The notes beneath the pieces are model-generated. The model did no database searches. It saw nothing but the letters and a program-made list of their open reading frames with translations, and was not told the DNA's origin. The position numbers and the translations under genes are program-made. From Candidatus Magnetaquicoccus inordinatus (GTDB taxonomy: Bacteria > Pseudomonadota > Magnetococcia > Magnetococcales > Magnetaquicoccaceae): a stretch of 32,746 nt of DNA. The stretch spans positions 1 to 32,746 of the forward strand of contig NZ_RXIU01000013.1 in assembly GCF_004217665.1 (NCBI RefSeq). The letters are read 5' to 3'. This document shows, piece after piece, positions 2,715 through 32,701 of this stretch (within the stretch, counting starts at the first letter, position 1; each line of letters opens with the position of its first letter).

Positions 2715-3563
2715 TTACTCGCGCAAGAGTTCATTGATGGCGGTTTTGGCACGGGTCTGTTCATCAACGGTTTTCACAATCACCGCACAATAGAGATTGG
2801 GACCGGGGGAGCCGTCGGGAAGAGCTTTGCCGGGCAGTGCTCCAGGGACCACCACCGAGTAGGGCGGCACATAGCCCATATGTACCTCACCGGTGGCACG
2901 ATTGACAATACGGGTCGAGCGGCCCAGGTAGACCCCCATGGAGAGGACGGCACCAGTGCCGACAATCACTCCCTCTGCCACTTCGGCGCGGGCGCCAATA
3001 AAGCAGTTGTCTTCGATAATGACCGGGTTGGCTTGCAGGGGTTCCAATACGCCACCAATACCGGCCCCGCCGGAGAGATGGACATGTTTGCCAATTTGGG
3101 CGCAGGAGCCGACGGTGGCCCAGGTATCGACCATGCTGCCTTCGCCGACATAGGCGCCGATATTGACAAACGAGGGCATCAGAATGGCACCGGGGGCGAT
3201 ATAGCTGCCTTTGCGGGCGTTGGCCGGGGGAACCACACGAATCCCGGCTTTGCTGAACTCTTTTTTCTTCCAGGAGCTGAATTTAAGGGGAACCTTGTCA
3301 TAGCAGAGCATCTCGCCAAGGGGCATGATGCGATTTTCGCGCAGACGGAAGGAGAGCAGAACCGCTTTTTTGATCCATTGTTGCACCAGCCAGCCATGTA
3401 TAGCTTCGGGATGGTCGGCAGCGGGTTGGGCAACACGCAGAGCTCCTCTGTCCAACTCCTCTATGACTTCGTTGACCGCTTTATGGATGCGGGCGCCACT
3501 GCGAGGAGAGAGTTGATCGCGGGCTTCCCATGCCTGTTCGATAATGGCTTGCAACTGTTTCAT
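2715..3563 (-). CDS. dapD: Tetrahydrodipicolinate N-succinyltransferase
   Basis: DapD transfers succinyl from succinyl-CoA to tetrahydrodipicolinate, the committing step of the succinylase DAP pathway. The 282-residue protein has the N-terminal helical domain, then left-handed beta-helix hexapeptide repeats (about residues 100-240) with [26 protein letters not shown] and [13 protein letters not shown]. Length matches the family. The start overlaps the dapC stop as ATGA, and GGAAGGA lies just upstream inside dapC, so the two are translationally coupled. Confidence 0.97.
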
Positions 3564-4825
3564 GATAGATTCCTTCCAGTGGGTGAGAGAGAGAGCAGCT
3601 CCTGGGCGCAGTGGGCAATGCGCAACATTGCCTGATGATTCTCTTCGCGCGAGGCCACCATGGCAATACGTACATAGTCGGCACCAGGATTATGGCCGTT
3701 GACATCGGGACGGCCCAGATAGGCGCCTGGCAGCACGGTGACATGATAGCGTTGATAGAGATGGCGGGCAAAGGATTCGCCACCACCGGGAACCCGCAGC
3801 CACAGGTAGAATCCGGCATCCGGAGCCTCTACGGGCAAAATCGGGGTGAGGATCTGCAGCGCATCGTGCAGCTTTTGTTGATACAAGATGCGATTTTCCC
3901 GAACATGCTCTTCATCCTGCCAAGCCGCAATGGCTGCCCGCTGGATAAAACGTGGGGTGGCACAGCCGGTATAGGTGCGCAAACGAAAATATTCTTCCAG
4001 AAGACGGGCATCACCGGCAACAAATCCAGAGCGCGCTCCTGGCATGTTGGAGCGTTTGGAAAGGGAGTGGAAGACCAGACATTGATCAAAACGCTCCACA
4101 CCCATCTGCTGCGCCGCCTGCAACAGACCAGCAGGGGGGTGATCATACCAGATTTCCGAATAGCATTCATCAGAGGCCAAGACAATCTGGTAACGCAACG
4201 CCAACTCAATCAGCTTTTGCAGTGTGGCCAGGGGAAAGACAGCACCTGTAGGATTGCCGGGCGAACAAAGATAAAGCAGGGCGGTACGTTCCAGAATGGC
4301 GGGTGGAATGTTTTGATAATCTGGTAAAAAATGTTGATCGGGATGGCAGGGTACATAGACCGGTTGTGCTCCCGCCATCAAGGTTGCCCCTTCATAAATT
4401 TGATAGAAGGGGTTGGGCATGAGCACATAGGGTCGGTCGTTGCCGCTGTTGTCCACCACGGCCTGGGCGATGGAGAAGAGTGCTTCACGGGTGCCGTTGA
4501 CCGGGAGAATATGCCGTTGCGGATCGACACTGGACTCTTTCAGTTGAAAACGCTGTTGCACCCAGTTGGCCATGGCTTGGCGCAAGGAGAGTTCACCGCG
4601 CGTGGTCGGATAGAGGCCAATATCCTCCAAAGCATCGGCCATGGTCTGCCGGATAAAGGCAGGAACCGGATGTTTGGGCTCACCAATGGAGAGATTGATC
4701 GCTGGCAACGGCTCTCCGGCAGGAGAAGGGGCGTGGCCAGAGGAGCGGGCTTCTGGATCGGCTCCCAGCAAAGCGGCCAGCTTTTCAAAAGGGTAGGGAT
4801 GGAGTTGCCGTAACAGGGAGTTCAT
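3560..4825 (-). CDS. dapC: Succinyldiaminopimelate transaminase
   Basis: A 421-residue fold-type I PLP aminotransferase that would convert N-succinyl-2-amino-6-ketopimelate to succinyl-diaminopimelate. Visible features are NGTREALF (about 110), CSPGNPTG (Asn191), SDECYSEI (Asp219) and the PLP lysine in [17 protein letters not shown] (Lys257). The wording of these motifs fits the proteobacterial DapC subgroup rather than ArgD-like dual enzymes, and the dapD/dapE neighbours support it. ATGA overlaps join it both to the M14 peptidase gene upstream and to dapD downstream. Confidence 0.94.
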
Positions 4826-25980: not shown

Positions 25981-26070
25981 GGAGGAGTTCCAGAGTGGTC
26001 GAATGGGACGGTCTCGAAAATCGTTGTGGGGGCAACCTCACCCAGGGTTCGAATCCCTGCTCCTCCGCCA
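25981..26070 (+). tRNA. tRNA-Ser(CGA)
   Basis: A 90-base class II tRNA. The acceptor stem pairs GGAGGAG with CTCCTCC and is followed by an encoded CCA. The anticodon loop CTCGAAA lies between ACGGT and ATCGT and reads CGA. A long variable arm (TGGGGGCAACCTCA) and the T-loop GGTTCGAATCC complete the serine form. Its 3' end abuts an integrase gene, so it is the probable attachment site of the downstream element; the integration left the tRNA intact. Confidence 0.97.
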
Positions 26071-26182: not shown

Positions 26183-26232
26183 ATCGTGGGTAGCATCGTG
26201 GGTAGGCTGATCGTGGGTAGCATCGTGGGTAG
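26183..26232 (+). repeat. Four direct repeats of ATCGTGGGTAG before the integrase
   Basis: Perfect 11-bp copies start at 26183, 26195, 26210 and 26222 (intervals 12, 15 and 12). They lie between the tRNA end and the integrase ATG, inside the predicted integrase leader. The position suits integrase arm-type or excisionase sites that also allow autoregulation; this role is inferred. Confidence 0.8.
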
Positions 26233-26251
26233 ACGGAAGAGGGGGCAGGAT

Positions 26252-27433
26252 ATGGCCAGAAAACCACCAGGGCAATTGACGGCACTAAAGGTCACCAAGA
26301 CCCGCACACCAGGATTGTACGGCGACGGCGGCAACCTTTGGTTGCAGGTGACCAGTCAGGCGGCCAAATCATGGGTACTACGCTACACGCTCAGGGGTAA
26401 GAATCGGGAAATGGGGCTGGGCAGTGTGCAGGATGTTTCTTTGGAGGAGGCCAGAACCAAAGCGGCCAAAGCCAGGAAGTTACTAATAGAGAGGGTAGAC
26501 CCCATTGTAGACCGGGACATTGAGCGGCAAAAGGCGGCACCCGCCAAGTCATTCAAGCAATGTGCTGATGAGTTCATCGAGGCGAACAAAGCCGGATGGA
26601 GCAATACCAAACATGCGGCGCAGTGGGCCAGTACCTTGGAGACATACGCCTATCCGATCATCGGGACCATGCCAGTCTCTGAGGTAACTACCGATCACGT
26701 GCTGCAGATTCTGAACCCTATCTGGCAGGAGAAGCCAGAAACGGCATCAAGGGTAAAGGGACGGATTGAGTCTGTCTTGAGCATGGCAACTGTGCGAGGT
26801 TATCGGATCGGGGAGAATCCAGCCAGATGGAAAGGGCATCTTGACCAGTTATTGCCAGCAAAGGTCAAAGTGGCCAAGGTGGAGCATCATGCAGCGTTGC
26901 CTTATGCGGATGTGTCGGGGTTTATGCGTGCCCTTGCACAACAAGAGGGTGTTGCAGCGTTGGCTTTGGCGTTTTGCATCCTGACTGCTACCAGGACCAG
27001 CGAGACGTTGGGGGCGGTGTGGGGAGAGATAGATTTTGCGGCCAAGGTGTGGGCCATTCCAGGCGACAGGATGAAAGCGGGCAGGGAACATAGGGTGCCA
27101 TTGAGTGACCAAGCCATGACGGTTCTGGAGCGGATGCAGGAGCAACGGCAACCGGATTATATATTCCCTGGCATGCGGGCAGGTAGACCGCTTTCCAATA
27201 TGGCATTGCTTATGACGTTGCGGCGCATGGAGCGAGGAGACCTAACAACGCATGGGTTTAGATCGACCTTCCGAGACTGGGCGGCAGAGACAACAGGCTA
27301 TCCGAACGAAGTTTGCGAGATGGCGCTTGCTCATGATGTGAAAGGCGTTGAGGGTGCATATCGTCGGGGGGATCTGTTTGAGAAGCGGCGGCAATTGATG
27401 GCTGATTGGGGACGGTACTGTGATGGAAAGTGA
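26252..27433 (+). CDS. Tyrosine recombinase/integrase (P4 type)
   Basis: A 393-residue integrase. The N-terminal region (LTALKVTKTRTPGLYGDGGNLWLQV) is the arm-binding domain found in P4-like and island integrases; a core-binding domain follows (about 100-190). The catalytic set is complete: Arg248 (TATRTSE), a lysine near 275, His334 and Arg337 (THGFRSTFRDW), His361 (ALAHDV) and Tyr370 (GAYRR). The ATG at 26252 follows GGCAGGA; the frame is open back to 26186 but that part is the repeat array. Being next to tRNA-Ser, it should catalyse integration there. Confidence 0.95.
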   Translation: MARKPPGQLTALKVTKTRTPGLYGDGGNLWLQVTSQAAKSWVLRYTLRGKNREMGLGSVQDVSLEEARTKAAKARKLLIERVDPIVDRDIERQKAAPAKSFKQCADEFIEANKAGWSNTKHAAQWASTLETYAYPIIGTMPVSEVTTDHVLQILNPIWQEKPETASRVKGRIESVLSMATVRGYRIGENPARWKGHLDQLLPAKVKVAKVEHHAALPYADVSGFMRALAQQEGVAALALAFCILTATRTSETLGAVWGEIDFAAKVWAIPGDRMKAGREHRVPLSDQAMTVLERMQEQRQPDYIFPGMRAGRPLSNMALLMTLRRMERGDLTTHGFRSTFRDWAAETTGYPNEVCEMALAHDVKGVEGAYRRGDLFEKRRQLMADWGRYCDGK

Positions 27434-28387: not shown

Positions 28388-28423
28388 CCAAGCATGTTTA
28401 ATTTCATCATGCGAGGTGTACCG

Positions 28424-28681
28424 ATGAGCGACAAAACCCAAACAAATCGAATTCTGACAACTTTGCCGGAAACAGAATTTCTGCGGTTAAAGCAGATTGT
28501 GGGCGACAAGAAAGCAACCCCTCCAATTCCGGCGCTAATCCCAGTTTGCCCGGCCACTTGGTGGAACGGGGTCAAGAACGGTAGATTTCCAAAGCCTGTA
28601 AAACTTGGCGCAAATTCAACTGGTTGGCGCGTTGAAGATGTTCGATCGTTGATTGATACCTTGGCTCAGGCGGCGGGCTGA
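28424..28681 (+). CDS. AlpA-like phage regulator (helix-turn-helix)
   Basis: An 85-residue protein with the pattern ATWWNGVKNGRFPKPVKLGANSTGWRVEDVRSLID, the AlpA/MerR-like winged helix used by P4-type elements to control integrase, excision and replication genes. The start at 28424 has GAGGTG 6 bases upstream; ATGs at 28394 and 28409 are less likely. An unusual N-terminal stretch (VGDKKATPPIPALIPVCP) replaces the usual LSRST lead-in. It directly precedes the primase gene. Confidence 0.82.
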   Translation: MSDKTQTNRILTTLPETEFLRLKQIVGDKKATPPIPALIPVCPATWWNGVKNGRFPKPVKLGANSTGWRVEDVRSLIDTLAQAAG

Positions 28682-28692
28682 GGTGCCCCCCC

Positions 28693-29826
28693 ATGGAGAC
28701 GCAAAAAACCCCCGGCGGCAACCGGGGGCGCACAACAAACTACCAAAATCACAGAAATAATAGCAACTTCCGCGACGAAAGGCAAGGCGATACATCCGAA
28801 GTCAAAGCGGCAATGTCCGGGCGTTGGCTTGACGCTCTCCCGCGAATCGCTCCGAGTCTTGCGCATGCCGTTGCACGGTTCCCCCGGCACGTTCCTTGTC
28901 CGATCCATGGGGGAAAAGATGGTCTGCGCCTATACGGTGACGCATCCCAAACCGGCGGTGGGGTCTGCAACACTTGCGGGGTATTCCCTGATGGAATCGC
29001 GGCGATTATGTGGGCGAACGGATGGGATTTTCCGACAACAATGGATGCGTTGTGTGATTTTCTCGGATGGACCCACCGCACCGGCAAACAGACCATGCCA
29101 CGAGTGCATGCGACACAGGCGCAGGAATCGGCGGCACCCACCCCGGATCTGAAGGCGTGGCAACGGATCCAGACCATTGCCGAGGGCGTTGTTCCTCTGA
29201 CCGATCCGGCGGCGGAACCGGCAAGGCTGTACCTGTACCAACGGGGCATCGGCAAAATAATGGATGATCTGCCAGATTCATCGGTTATCGGTTTTCATCA
29301 GGGGCTGATGTATTGGCATGAGAGGCGGCACATCGGAGATTATCCGGCACTTGTGGCGCGTGTGCAGCGAATCGATGGTGCAACGATTGGACTACACTGC
29401 ACATACCTAAGCGACGACGGAAGCAAGGCCGATGTGCCAGGGGTGAAAAAGCTGACCCCAAAGCTGTGGTATGGAGCATACACGGGCGCAGCGGTTCGCT
29501 TATACCCGTTGGGCGGCGACACCCTGCATTTGACTGAAGGCGTCGAGACTGCGCTTGCCGTGCGCTTAGGAACCGGCGGGCCTGTTTGGGCCTGTTTGAC
29601 TGCTGGAGTAATGGAGAATGTTCAATTGCCGCGTGAGGCTCGGAACATCTGCATTTGGGCTGACCTTGATGCAAGCGGCGCAGGGCAACGTGCGGCGCAT
29701 ACACTTGCCGACCATCTGGCATCAGAGGACCGCACCGTTCGCATCCTGACACCCCCAGGGCTGATTCCTGAAGGTGCCAAGGGTTTGGATTGGCTAGACA
29801 TCTTGACGCAATGGGGGCGCACATGA
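28693..29826 (+). CDS. Zinc-ribbon/TOPRIM primase
   Basis: A 377-residue primase-like protein. A zinc ribbon (PCPIHGGKDGLRLY then VCNTCG; Cys69, His72, Cys92, Cys95) resembles the P4-alpha/bacteriophage primase zinc domain, and a TOPRIM domain follows with LTEGVETALAV (Glu) and IWADLDASGAGQRAA (DxD). It would lay down primers for replication of the element. The ATG at 28693 has GAGGTG 7 bases upstream; the domain begins near residue 33, after a low-complexity start spanning a GC-rich hairpin. The stop overlaps the helicase ATG (ATGA). Confidence 0.9.
   Translation: METQKTPGGNRGRTTNYQNHRNNSNFRDERQGDTSEVKAAMSGRWLDALPRIAPSLAHAVARFPRHVPCPIHGGKDGLRLYGDASQTGGGVCNTCGVFPDGIAAIMWANGWDFPTTMDALCDFLGWTHRTGKQTMPRVHATQAQESAAPTPDLKAWQRIQTIAEGVVPLTDPAAEPARLYLYQRGIGKIMDDLPDSSVIGFHQGLMYWHERRHIGDYPALVARVQRIDGATIGLHCTYLSDDGSKADVPGVKKLTPKLWYGAYTGAAVRLYPLGGDTLHLTEGVETALAVRLGTGGPVWACLTAGVMENVQLPREARNICIWADLDASGAGQRAAHTLADHLASEDRTVRILTPPGLIPEGAKGLDWLDILTQWGRT
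28703..28728 (-). terminator. Hairpin with T-run, minus-strand terminator form
   Basis: CCCCCGG (28709-28715) and CCGGGGG (28722-28728) surround six bases, and six A residues (28703-28708) precede them. Read on the minus strand this is a GC-rich stem followed by T6, the form of an intrinsic terminator. On the plus strand it falls inside codons 4-12 of the primase gene and has no T-run. No minus-strand gene was found that it would serve. Confidence 0.5.
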
Positions 29827-31022
29827 ACCCATTTGCAGAGGCTCTAAAGGGCAGCATTCCGCACGTTCCTGCACCGGCAAACGATGCGCCAGAGGTGGAA
29901 CTCCTGTTTGATCCAATGGACCATCGAGCATTGACGATTGCAGCGATGATCGAACCGCCACCAAAAAGAGCGGCAATCATAGAAAATTTAATTTATCGCG
30001 CCATTGTCGCGCTTTTGGCTGGGCCAGGAGGCACAGGCAAAGATACTTTGGCTAGAGTAATGTCCTGTTGTTGTGGGACAGGCGCCAATTTTATGGGCCT
30101 GAAAACGACGAAATGCAGAGTAGTTTATTTTGGTTCAGAGGATGAGCAGAGCGAACTTTTTAGAGGGTTGTACTACGAAGCTCAAAAATACTCCCCTCAT
30201 GAGCGGGAACTGATTGCTCAAAACGTTTTTATTAAGTCGCTGACCGGTACGAACTGCCGCATGACCGACACCAAACAAGGGATGGTCATGGCAACGGGAT
30301 TTGCGCAGCGGATTGCTGCAACCGTGCAGGCCGTTGGCGATGTGGGGTTGATAATCTTCTCAACCATATCCAGAGCAAATGGTGGGGATGAAAATTCTGC
30401 GGCTGATATGACGATGTTGGTAGAACAATTTGAGCTTATTGCTCAAACAACAAATGCCGCTGTACTGCTTTTGCACCACACCCCCAAAGCATCTATGCGT
30501 GACAGTGATAGAAGTCAAGCGGCTGTTCGAGGTTCAAGCGCAATTGTCGATGGTGCACGTTCTGTTCTGTTGCTAAACAGACCGGATGAGAAAGAGGCTC
30601 GCCACATTCCCAAAGATGAACTCAAAAACTACATAGTTTTGAGTCATGTAAAGTCAAATTATTCTGCGCTGGCGGATGACATTTGGATGAAAAGGGGGCT
30701 GCATGGTGTTTTGTCTCAAACCACACCGCCAGGGCCAGGCCGCGTTGCCGATGGTGGGCCGGATCCGGTCATCACAAAGATTGCCGATTTGGTTCGCGAT
30801 TACGCACGAACCGGGCGTTTGTTCAGCCAGAGGAGTTTCGTTATTGCTCATTTTGGTGATAGTGGGTCATTCGGACTGTCCAAGGATAAGCTGACCGCCA
30901 AGGTGGAGGAGGCCATTCATTTGGGTGTTATCGAGCAAAGACCCGTCCTAAAGGGGAGCGGGTACCACCTGCACATACCGGCCAGCAAAAATGACTCAGG
31001 GGGGCAAGATGAAGAGTTCTAA
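29823..31022 (+). CDS. RecA-like (AAA_25/RepA-type) replicative helicase
   Basis: A 399-residue ATPase of the RSF1010 RepA/AAA_25 kind. Walker A is LLAGPGGTGKDTLA (Lys73), followed by VYFGSEDEQSELFRG (EDxxxEL motif), VLLLHHTPK and AAVRGSSAIVDGARS. The Walker B segment reads GLIIFSTISRANGGDENSA where relatives have an Asp in IIDPLSR. The C-terminal 90 residues form a probable winged helix (FGLSKDKLTAKVEEAIHLGVIE). It overlaps the primase gene as ATGA and ends just before an iteron array, a primase-helicase-origin module. Confidence 0.85.
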   Translation: MNPFAEALKGSIPHVPAPANDAPEVELLFDPMDHRALTIAAMIEPPPKRAAIIENLIYRAIVALLAGPGGTGKDTLARVMSCCCGTGANFMGLKTTKCRVVYFGSEDEQSELFRGLYYEAQKYSPHERELIAQNVFIKSLTGTNCRMTDTKQGMVMATGFAQRIAATVQAVGDVGLIIFSTISRANGGDENSAADMTMLVEQFELIAQTTNAAVLLLHHTPKASMRDSDRSQAAVRGSSAIVDGARSVLLLNRPDEKEARHIPKDELKNYIVLSHVKSNYSALADDIWMKRGLHGVLSQTTPPGPGRVADGGPDPVITKIADLVRDYARTGRLFSQRSFVIAHFGDSGSFGLSKDKLTAKVEEAIHLGVIEQRPVLKGSGYHLHIPASKNDSGGQDEEF

Positions 31023-31032
31023 ACCTCGGTTT

Positions 31033-31249
31033 GGTGTCCTGGTGTCCTGGTGTCCTGAGGTGTCCTGTTTTTTTTTCAGGACACCATAACATACTGAAAA
31101 CACTAGGAAAAGTTTGGTGTCCTGGTGTCCTGGTGTCCTGGTGTCCTGGTGTCCTGGTTTTTTAGGATACCAGAACATATTGATTTTGTTGATGTTTTTT
31201 GGTGTCCTGGTGTCCTACCCCTTATAGGGGGATGGTGTTTCAGGACACC
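31033..31249. repeat. Iteron array, candidate replication origin of the element
   Basis: The octamer GGTGTCCT occurs 11 times in direct orientation: 31033, 31041, 31049 and 31059; 31116, 31124, 31132, 31140 and 31148; 31201 and 31209. Each cluster is followed by an inverted copy: AGGACACC at 31078, AGGATACC at 31164 (one mismatch) and AGGACACC at 31242. T-runs (9 and 6) separate the last direct copy from the inverted copy in the first two modules. AT-rich spacers lie between modules. CCCC-TTATA-GGGG and a similar CCCCTTTATAGGG flank the last module. No coding sequence is present here. Confidence 0.9.
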
Positions 31250-31725: not shown

Positions 31726-32199
31726 ATGTTTGACGAAACTGCATTACAAAGAGCTAAAGAATACGAGCACCCCCGCCGTCGTTTGTTGGGCCTGTTGCAA
31801 CGGGGTCACACGGCGGGGGGCAAAACAATGCTATCCGGCCAGCTTAATGGGCGCCATGTTGCAGTAATTCTTGCCCGTCCAGCAAAAAAACAGCCAGGGG
31901 TTCGTCGCGGTGAGCAACCAATTTATGGAGAGTGGACAGCCTTTGTTGGAAGTCGTGAGGTGGGGCGGTTTGTGACTGCTACTTCGATGTGGGGGGGGCC
32001 GTTGCTGGTCGGGTGTTTGGAATGCGTGGAGGGGGTTTTATTTGTTAATGCGTGGGGATCTTTTAATGCACCAGTTTATCGAGATCCAACCCCTCAACAG
32101 CCTCCTTCCGGCGGTGTAATGAAGCAACTGACCGTACATATTCACCATGGTGAAATGCCTGAATTGGAAGAGATTTTGAAGGTGGGAAACAATGGCTGA
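31726..32199 (+). CDS. Hypothetical element-borne protein
   Basis: 157 residues from the ATG at 31726 (GAGGT 5 bases upstream). Not recognised. The N-terminal third is basic (YEHPRRRLLGLLQRGH); the middle looks like a beta-rich domain (YGEWTAFVGSREVGRFVTATSMWGG). The end is acidic (MPELEEILKVGNNG). It overlaps the terminase-like gene by 8 bases. The frame is open back to 31504, overlapping the preceding gene, which is unlikely to be used. Confidence 0.65.
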   Translation: MFDETALQRAKEYEHPRRRLLGLLQRGHTAGGKTMLSGQLNGRHVAVILARPAKKQPGVRRGEQPIYGEWTAFVGSREVGRFVTATSMWGGPLLVGCLECVEGVLFVNAWGSFNAPVYRDPTPQQPPSGGVMKQLTVHIHHGEMPELEEILKVGNNG

Positions 32200-32701
32200 A
32201 AAACCAACTGTGACAAAAATGCAACAGTGTCAGGGTAAACCGGCATCACCGGCCTTTCCATCCAAGCGGCGGCAGATTTTTCTGAAGGCTCTGGCGCTGG
32301 GGGGCGTCGTCACCCATGCGGCGGCATCGGCGGGGGCAAGTCGAAAAACCTTGTACGCTTTTCGGGCAACAAATCCAGAGTTTGCCGAAGAATGGGATAA
32401 CGCCTTGGAATCATTTGCTGATAGTCTGGAGCAAGCGGCACGGCAAAGGGGTGTTGATGGCTGGCAAGAGCCAGTTTATCAGGGTGGGCAACTGGTCGGA
32501 ACTGTGCGTAAATATTCTGATTCTCTGCTGCTGGCCATGTTGCGGGCACGGAAGCCGGAGTATCGGCCAGCGGCACAGGTGCCAGCACCACCACCGGCAC
32601 CAGAGAAAAAAGAACGAGATCCAGAAAAGATTGCGCGAAAGATTGCATTTGCTCTGGCTCTTGCTGCAAAAAATGCAGAGCAGAAAGGAGGCGACGGGTA
32701 A
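32192..32701 (+). CDS. Terminase-small-subunit-like protein
   Basis: 169 residues. A helix-turn-helix (FLKALALGGVVTHAAASAGASRKTLYAFRATNPEFAEEWDNAL) is followed by a helical region with LLLAMLRARKPEYR, the layout of phage terminase small subunits that recognise packaging DNA. A Pro/Ala hinge and a Lys/Glu-rich helix end the protein. AGGTGGG precedes the ATG. The remaining 45 bases of the window show no gene start. A large terminase gene would be expected next, outside the window; other phage regulators share this helix-turn-helix, so the call is moderate. Confidence 0.65.
   Translation: MAEKPTVTKMQQCQGKPASPAFPSKRRQIFLKALALGGVVTHAAASAGASRKTLYAFRATNPEFAEEWDNALESFADSLEQAARQRGVDGWQEPVYQGGQLVGTVRKYSDSLLLAMLRARKPEYRPAAQVPAPPPAPEKKERDPEKIARKIAFALALAAKNAEQKGGDG

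Follow-up and report, generated by a model that had tools for sequence, protein, structure and literature searches.

Gene content of the element at the tRNA-Ser locus

The window (the whole stretch of DNA analysed, 32,746 nt) is one complete contig and carries an integrated element that starts at a tRNA-Ser(CGA) gene (25981-26070) and runs off the right contig end, leaving 6.7 kb of it available. All genes of the element point rightward and follow the order integrase, unknown, AlpA-like, primase, AAA_25 helicase, iteron array, two unknown ORFs and terS. The tyrosine integrase (26186-27433, plus strand) lies next to the tRNA gene, which forms the left end of the element. Repeats of ATCGTGGGTAG were seen at 26184-26235, where the long integrase ORF begins, between tRNA-Ser and the integrase; these are possibly arm-type sites of the integrase, and the true integrase start may lie downstream of that of the long ORF. 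The AlpA-like regulator or excisionase (28394-28681, plus strand) gave a weak profile match just below the Pfam cut-off and is 57% identical to the copy in a related island (G017). It is followed by a primase (28693-29826, plus strand) with profile matches to Zn_Ribbon_Prim, DUF7146 and Toprim_3 (phrog_510), and by a RepA-type helicase of RecA fold (29811-31022, plus strand; AAA_25, Pfam 2.4e-32), which is the candidate iteron-binding initiator. The small terminase subunit (terS, 32192-32701, plus strand; phrog_4044, 2.6e-39) shares 56% identity with the TerS of an island in G006, a genome of the same genus.

Organization of the iteron array

The array begins 10 bp past the helicase stop codon. 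The octamer GGTGTCCT occurs 13 times exactly in the window, whereas shuffled sequences contain 0.94 on average and at most 4, and all 13 copies (11 direct and 2 inverted) are confined to 31033-31249. The earlier note, made from the letters alone, had counted eleven direct copies grouped as 4, 5 and 2, each group closed by an inverted copy; the count agrees to the base and the closing copies are present, two of them exact and the one in module 2 with a mismatch. Module 1 (31033-31066, plus strand) comprises four exact direct iterons, starting at 31033, 31041, 31049 and 31059, and its exact closing iteron (31078-31085, minus strand) pairs with 31059-31067 to give the 9-bp stem around a T9 loop (31068-31076) that the note had described. 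Module 2 consists of five contiguous exact direct iterons (31116-31155, plus strand) and the near-copy AGGATACC (31164-31171, minus strand), whose single mismatch is the G-T pair already remarked on in the second stem. Module 3, likewise as first read, has two exact direct iterons (31201-31216, plus strand) and, at 31234-31249, a degenerate direct copy GGTGTTTC followed by the exact inverted iteron AGGACACC (31242-31249). The AT-rich spacers reported between modules measure 30 bp (31086-31115, 73% AT) and 29 bp (31172-31200, 79% AT); the first lies between divergent iterons, has a gap size (26-33 bp) that is kept in relatives and is a candidate melting region. IHF-like boxes on the minus strand stand at equal offsets from the respective inverted iterons of modules 1 and 2, namely TTTCAGTATGTTA (31087-31099), one base off its iteron, and AATCAATATGTTC (31173-31185), whose last base departs from the consensus. 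A C/G palindrome, CCCCTTATAGGGGG (31218-31231), lies within module 3, and palindromes of this CCCCTNNAGGGG type were observed at the far end of 14/34 arrays as compared to 18/728 control segments.

The helicase tail and arrays among helicase relatives

The helicase core resembles RSF1010 RepA by sequence and by fold (1nlf, TM 0.86 normalised by target length; also 1g8y), and about 100 residues extend beyond it. AlphaFold2 folded this tail into three helices and a two-stranded wing (H-H-H-E-E) with a mean pLDDT of 87 for a 26-sequence alignment and 79.5 for the tail alone, and a C-terminal winged helix is thus predicted at about residues 318-387 of the 402-aa model starting at 29814. Foldseek searches with the tail returned mostly winged-helix DNA-binding proteins, all weak (best E 0.06, none at E<0.001), and the P4-alpha domain was missing among the matches listed.

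Searching for arrays beside the helicase genes of relatives, as the earlier note had proposed, yielded about 30 remote relatives, each with its own array and its own word. Single-sequence helicase searches of viral and genome contigs gave nothing useful except one primase-linked locus. The remote relatives (about 20-35% identity) have their own 7-mer in 5-14 copies at the corresponding position, which 0/200 shuffles reached, and only 15/1493 control segments of the same loci held at least five copies of one 7-mer. The words include AGTGTCCC, GTCCGGCA, GGCGCAC, CGTTCCC (common to the members of one clade), CGTTGGCA and GTTACCA, among others. Arrays of CGGGACA and CGTGACA were seen in L026 (2484-2598) and L027 (2577-2678) inside the 3' end of the helicase frame and not after it.

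The presence of an array, called as at least five copies of one exact 7-mer at the 3' end of the helicase gene, was compared with that of a tail in 52 distinct relatives with enough flank. Among helicases whose tail measures 60 aa or more, 32/45 were accompanied by an array, the window's helicase being one of the 32, as against 0/7 without such a tail (Fisher p 6e-4), counts that are not fully independent because the relatives come mostly from one order and IMG/VR and some are of recent common ancestry. Exact 7-mer counting misses imperfect arrays, and among the 13/45 tailed helicases lacking an array by this count, at least one (L076) does so because its repeats are imperfect. As regards the origin-binding C-terminal domain expected of a self-loading initiator helicase, the analysis gives a predicted winged helix on the tail and a statistical tie between the tail and the array.

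The alternative that survives best, though we regard it as unlikely, is that the array is an origin but that a host protein or another protein of the element, not the helicase, recognises it. RSF1010 RepA, the nearest relative with a solved structure, does leave its origin to a separate protein, RepC (PMC2200642). The similarity of array words correlates with tail identity (r 0.60; Mantel, 0/5000 permutations), but just as well with core identity (r 0.58), so that the tail is not singled out and descent alone could explain the covariation. Against another recogniser, no RepC-like gene was recognised among the genes of the window element with Pfam, PHROGs and NCBIfam, helicases devoid of a tail are devoid of arrays, and the words differ among elements of one and the same genome, where arrays other than that of GGTGTCCT carry CGGGAAC (C114) and AAGTGACA (C538).

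Conservation of the array layout

Divergent gaps in relatives with unrelated words measure 29/30 bp in L011, 31/31 in L012, 28/28 in L013, 28/33 in L120 and 27/31 in L018. Over 34 arrays, 20 divergent gaps fell at 26-33 bp, whereas 5000 gap shuffles averaged 6.3 and never exceeded 16; the exact significance is optimistic because the bin was picked after the data were seen. The three-module layout, which had seemed unusual on first reading, recurs in relatives with unrelated words, and it does so in the P4 ori as well. Convergent gaps between facing iterons, on the other hand, range in relatives between 1 bp (L013) and 15 bp, so the T9 loop is incidental and the T-loop cruciform, presented earlier as a feature of the array, was rejected as a conserved element; the hairpin is probably just two facing iterons.

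Of the 34 arrays, 20 contain the IHF-like box WWTCARNNNNTTR, often 1-4 bases off an iteron, and of 728 control segments 46 do; the motif was noticed first and then tested on largely the same arrays. A narrower motif, CARTNNGTTV, was present in 12/35 arrays and was less enriched than this loose consensus. An IHF-alpha-like protein, scoring just above the curated cut-off, is encoded in the window's genome. The canonical form WATCAANNNNTTR is less frequent (5/34 arrays) and the equivalent box of P4 is non-canonical; we therefore rejected a strict IHF site and name the box IHF-like only.

These patterns also bear on the possibility, to which we assign very little weight, that the array is an operator or attenuator for the genes downstream of the helicase, its hairpins acting in RNA or as cruciforms. 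It does lie between two genes of an operon-like run, and in single-stranded folding modules 1 and 3 fold better than shuffled sequences (z -3.6 and -3.4), module 2 being weaker (z -2.1). The T-run, however, sits within the loop rather than after the stem, which does not make a standard terminator, no RNA family reached the Rfam gathering score in the array, and what relatives have conserved is the divergent AT-rich spacers and not the hairpin.

Related islands and exchange of the helicase

Related islands place the array in its wider context. The island in G042 is complete (7.6 kb) and consists of a tRNA-Arg gene, 93-bp att repeats, an integrase, a fused primase-helicase and a AGTGTCCC array, with neither structural genes nor terS recognised in it. 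The G017 island occupies the same tRNA-Ser site as the window element and carries an integrase 64% identical to that of the window, a primase, a helicase, an array and terS, followed by host genes. That in G006 runs from an integrase and AlpA through a primase sharing 57% identity with that of the window to a D5 helicase, which has a small paired array, and on to terS, beyond which lie a second integrase fragment and then host genes. At this last locus (L037/L127, G006:C88) the D5-type helicase (3145-4593) follows the primase, and over its first 27 residues it shares 70% identity with the start of the window helicase; by sequence comparison, the locus reads as a clean helicase-module swap beside conserved primase and terS. 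Facing (paired inverted) iterons also occupy the place of the array in relatives that share the primase but encode D5 or DUF3987 helicases. Comparison of D5, DUF3987 and RepA-type islands thus indicates that the helicase has been exchanged while the primase, the position of the array and terS stay.

Two further loci were observed in this survey. Near the end of a related island, L038 (G024:C8, 6196-6969) encodes an AbiJ_NTD4 protein, a candidate abortive-infection gene. L042 (G008:C55, 2999-9845) is a decayed island at tRNA-Val with a tail-less truncated helicase, a primase with stop codons and a 34-bp att repeat, and no array was found in it.

The terS genes of these islands are relevant to the proposal that the array serves in packaging, as a pac/cos-like site for the small terminase whose gene lies 0.9 kb further downstream. 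Proteins of this kind can bind repeats, and the window does encode one. Yet arrays adjoin helicase genes also where terS went undetected (G042) or belongs to another family (phrog_57 in the islands of G017 and G024, as against phrog_4044 in the window), the words covary with the helicase, and the presence of an array is tied to the helicase tail; we consider a packaging site highly improbable. A dispersed chromosomal repeat, which the earlier note had named as the finding that would speak against an origin, was rejected since the 4.14-Mb genome has no second tandem of GGTGTCCT, the sole other match having two mismatches.

A putative self-loading replication module

Taken together, the array and the place where it lies, its association with tailed helicases, its conserved layout, the predicted fold and the surrounding island make it very probable that the array serves as replication origin in an integrated phage satellite of PICI/P4 type. 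In the mechanism that we propose, helicase subunits would bind the GGTGTCCT iterons via the C-terminal winged helix, and the clusters flanking each 30-bp AT-rich spacer would bring hexamers together. IHF or a similar protein probably bends the DNA at the box beside the inverted iteron. The AT-rich spacer would then melt and the RepA-fold helicase may load itself without a separate initiator, with the Toprim primase encoded just upstream supplying the primers. Replication after excision would copy the island, and the TerS that the island encodes may direct packaging by a helper phage.

More broadly, we lean slightly towards the view that a RepA-fold (SF4-type) helicase has gained its own origin-reading winged helix and thereby become a self-loading initiator outside the AAA+ SF3/D5 helicases, with the layout seen in P4 and PICIs (facing iterons, then an AT spacer of 30-35 bp that contains a shared box, then iterons) forming an origin grammar older than, or independent of, the helicase family. 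If a RepA-type helicase does read its own iterons, SF4-type loading without an initiator becomes testable on a module of two genes plus 217 bp. Studies of initiator-origin specificity would benefit from the large number of orthogonal iteron words. The data place P4/PICI-style replicons in Magnetococcia and suggest that satellites exchange helicase families while retaining one origin layout.

Comparison with known systems

The P4 ori consists of three direct GGTGAACA copies, one inverted copy, a 35-bp AT spacer that is constant across P4 relatives, and two direct copies. The window array has this P4-type architecture, in which an octamer cluster ends in an inverted copy and is followed by an AT-rich spacer of the 30-35 bp type and further direct copies, and the spacer beside the inverted iteron reads CAGTAAGTTA in the P4 ori and CAGTATGTTA in the window. 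It likewise follows the helicase gene directly, as crr follows the alpha gene in P4. The P4 primase has a zinc ribbon and a Toprim domain, and the window primase has both. The systems differ in the iteron word, in the number of AT spacers (two in the window, one in P4), in the second array 4-5 kb away, which is lacking in the part of the window element available, and in the helicase, which is RepA-type (AAA_25) in the window and D5/Pox_D5 in P4. As to the marker set of P4-like satellites (PMC8628076), the Pox_D5 (PF03288) alpha helicase is absent by Pfam, and psu, sid, delta and epsilon were not recognised in the 6.7 kb of the cut-off element with Pfam, PHROGs and NCBIfam. The earlier suggestion of a P4-like satellite origin next to primase and helicase genes thus gained strong backing from comparison as regards the origin, the satellite island and the resemblance to P4; membership in the P4-like group fell away, the helicase being RepA-type without a Pox_D5/P4-alpha domain.

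With RSF1010 the window element shares the RepA fold of the helicase core. RSF1010 RepA has no tail and works with a separate RepC, whereas in the window the tail is fused to the helicase, the array abuts the helicase gene, and the separate RepC iteron-binding protein of an IncQ/RSF1010 replicon was not recognised among the element's genes in the window with Pfam, PHROGs and NCBIfam.

In gene order the element is closer to the PICIs (Gram-negative PICIs and SaPIs), defined by unidirectional genes in the order int, alpA/xis, pri, rep, ori and optional terS (PMC6092414), an order that the window element displays. Iteron sets flank an AT-rich region right after rep in Gram-negative PICIs, and the pri-rep-ori segment of EcCICFT073 sustains plasmid replication (PMC6092414); the window has three iteron sets around two AT regions, immediately 3' of its helicase gene. 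For an attachment site and the lack of structural genes, the tRNA-Ser left end is present and the right end lies beyond the contig, while the islands in G042, G017 and G006 have no recognisable structural genes. SaPI Reps are of DUF927 or D5 type as opposed to the RepA fold of the window helicase. In SaPI Rep and Cch2 helicases a C-terminal domain binds iterons directly 3' of their own gene (PMC7581432). Literature searches returned nothing specific on Magnetococcales satellites or on satellite, iteron, AT-rich and helicase jointly. As judged from sequence, the window element joins a P4/PICI-type origin and a PICI-like gene order to a RepA-type helicase and is excluded by its markers from the P4-like satellites. 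What is new here is that a RepA-fold helicase probably recognises its own origin and that, on sequence comparison, one origin layout is common to several helicase families.
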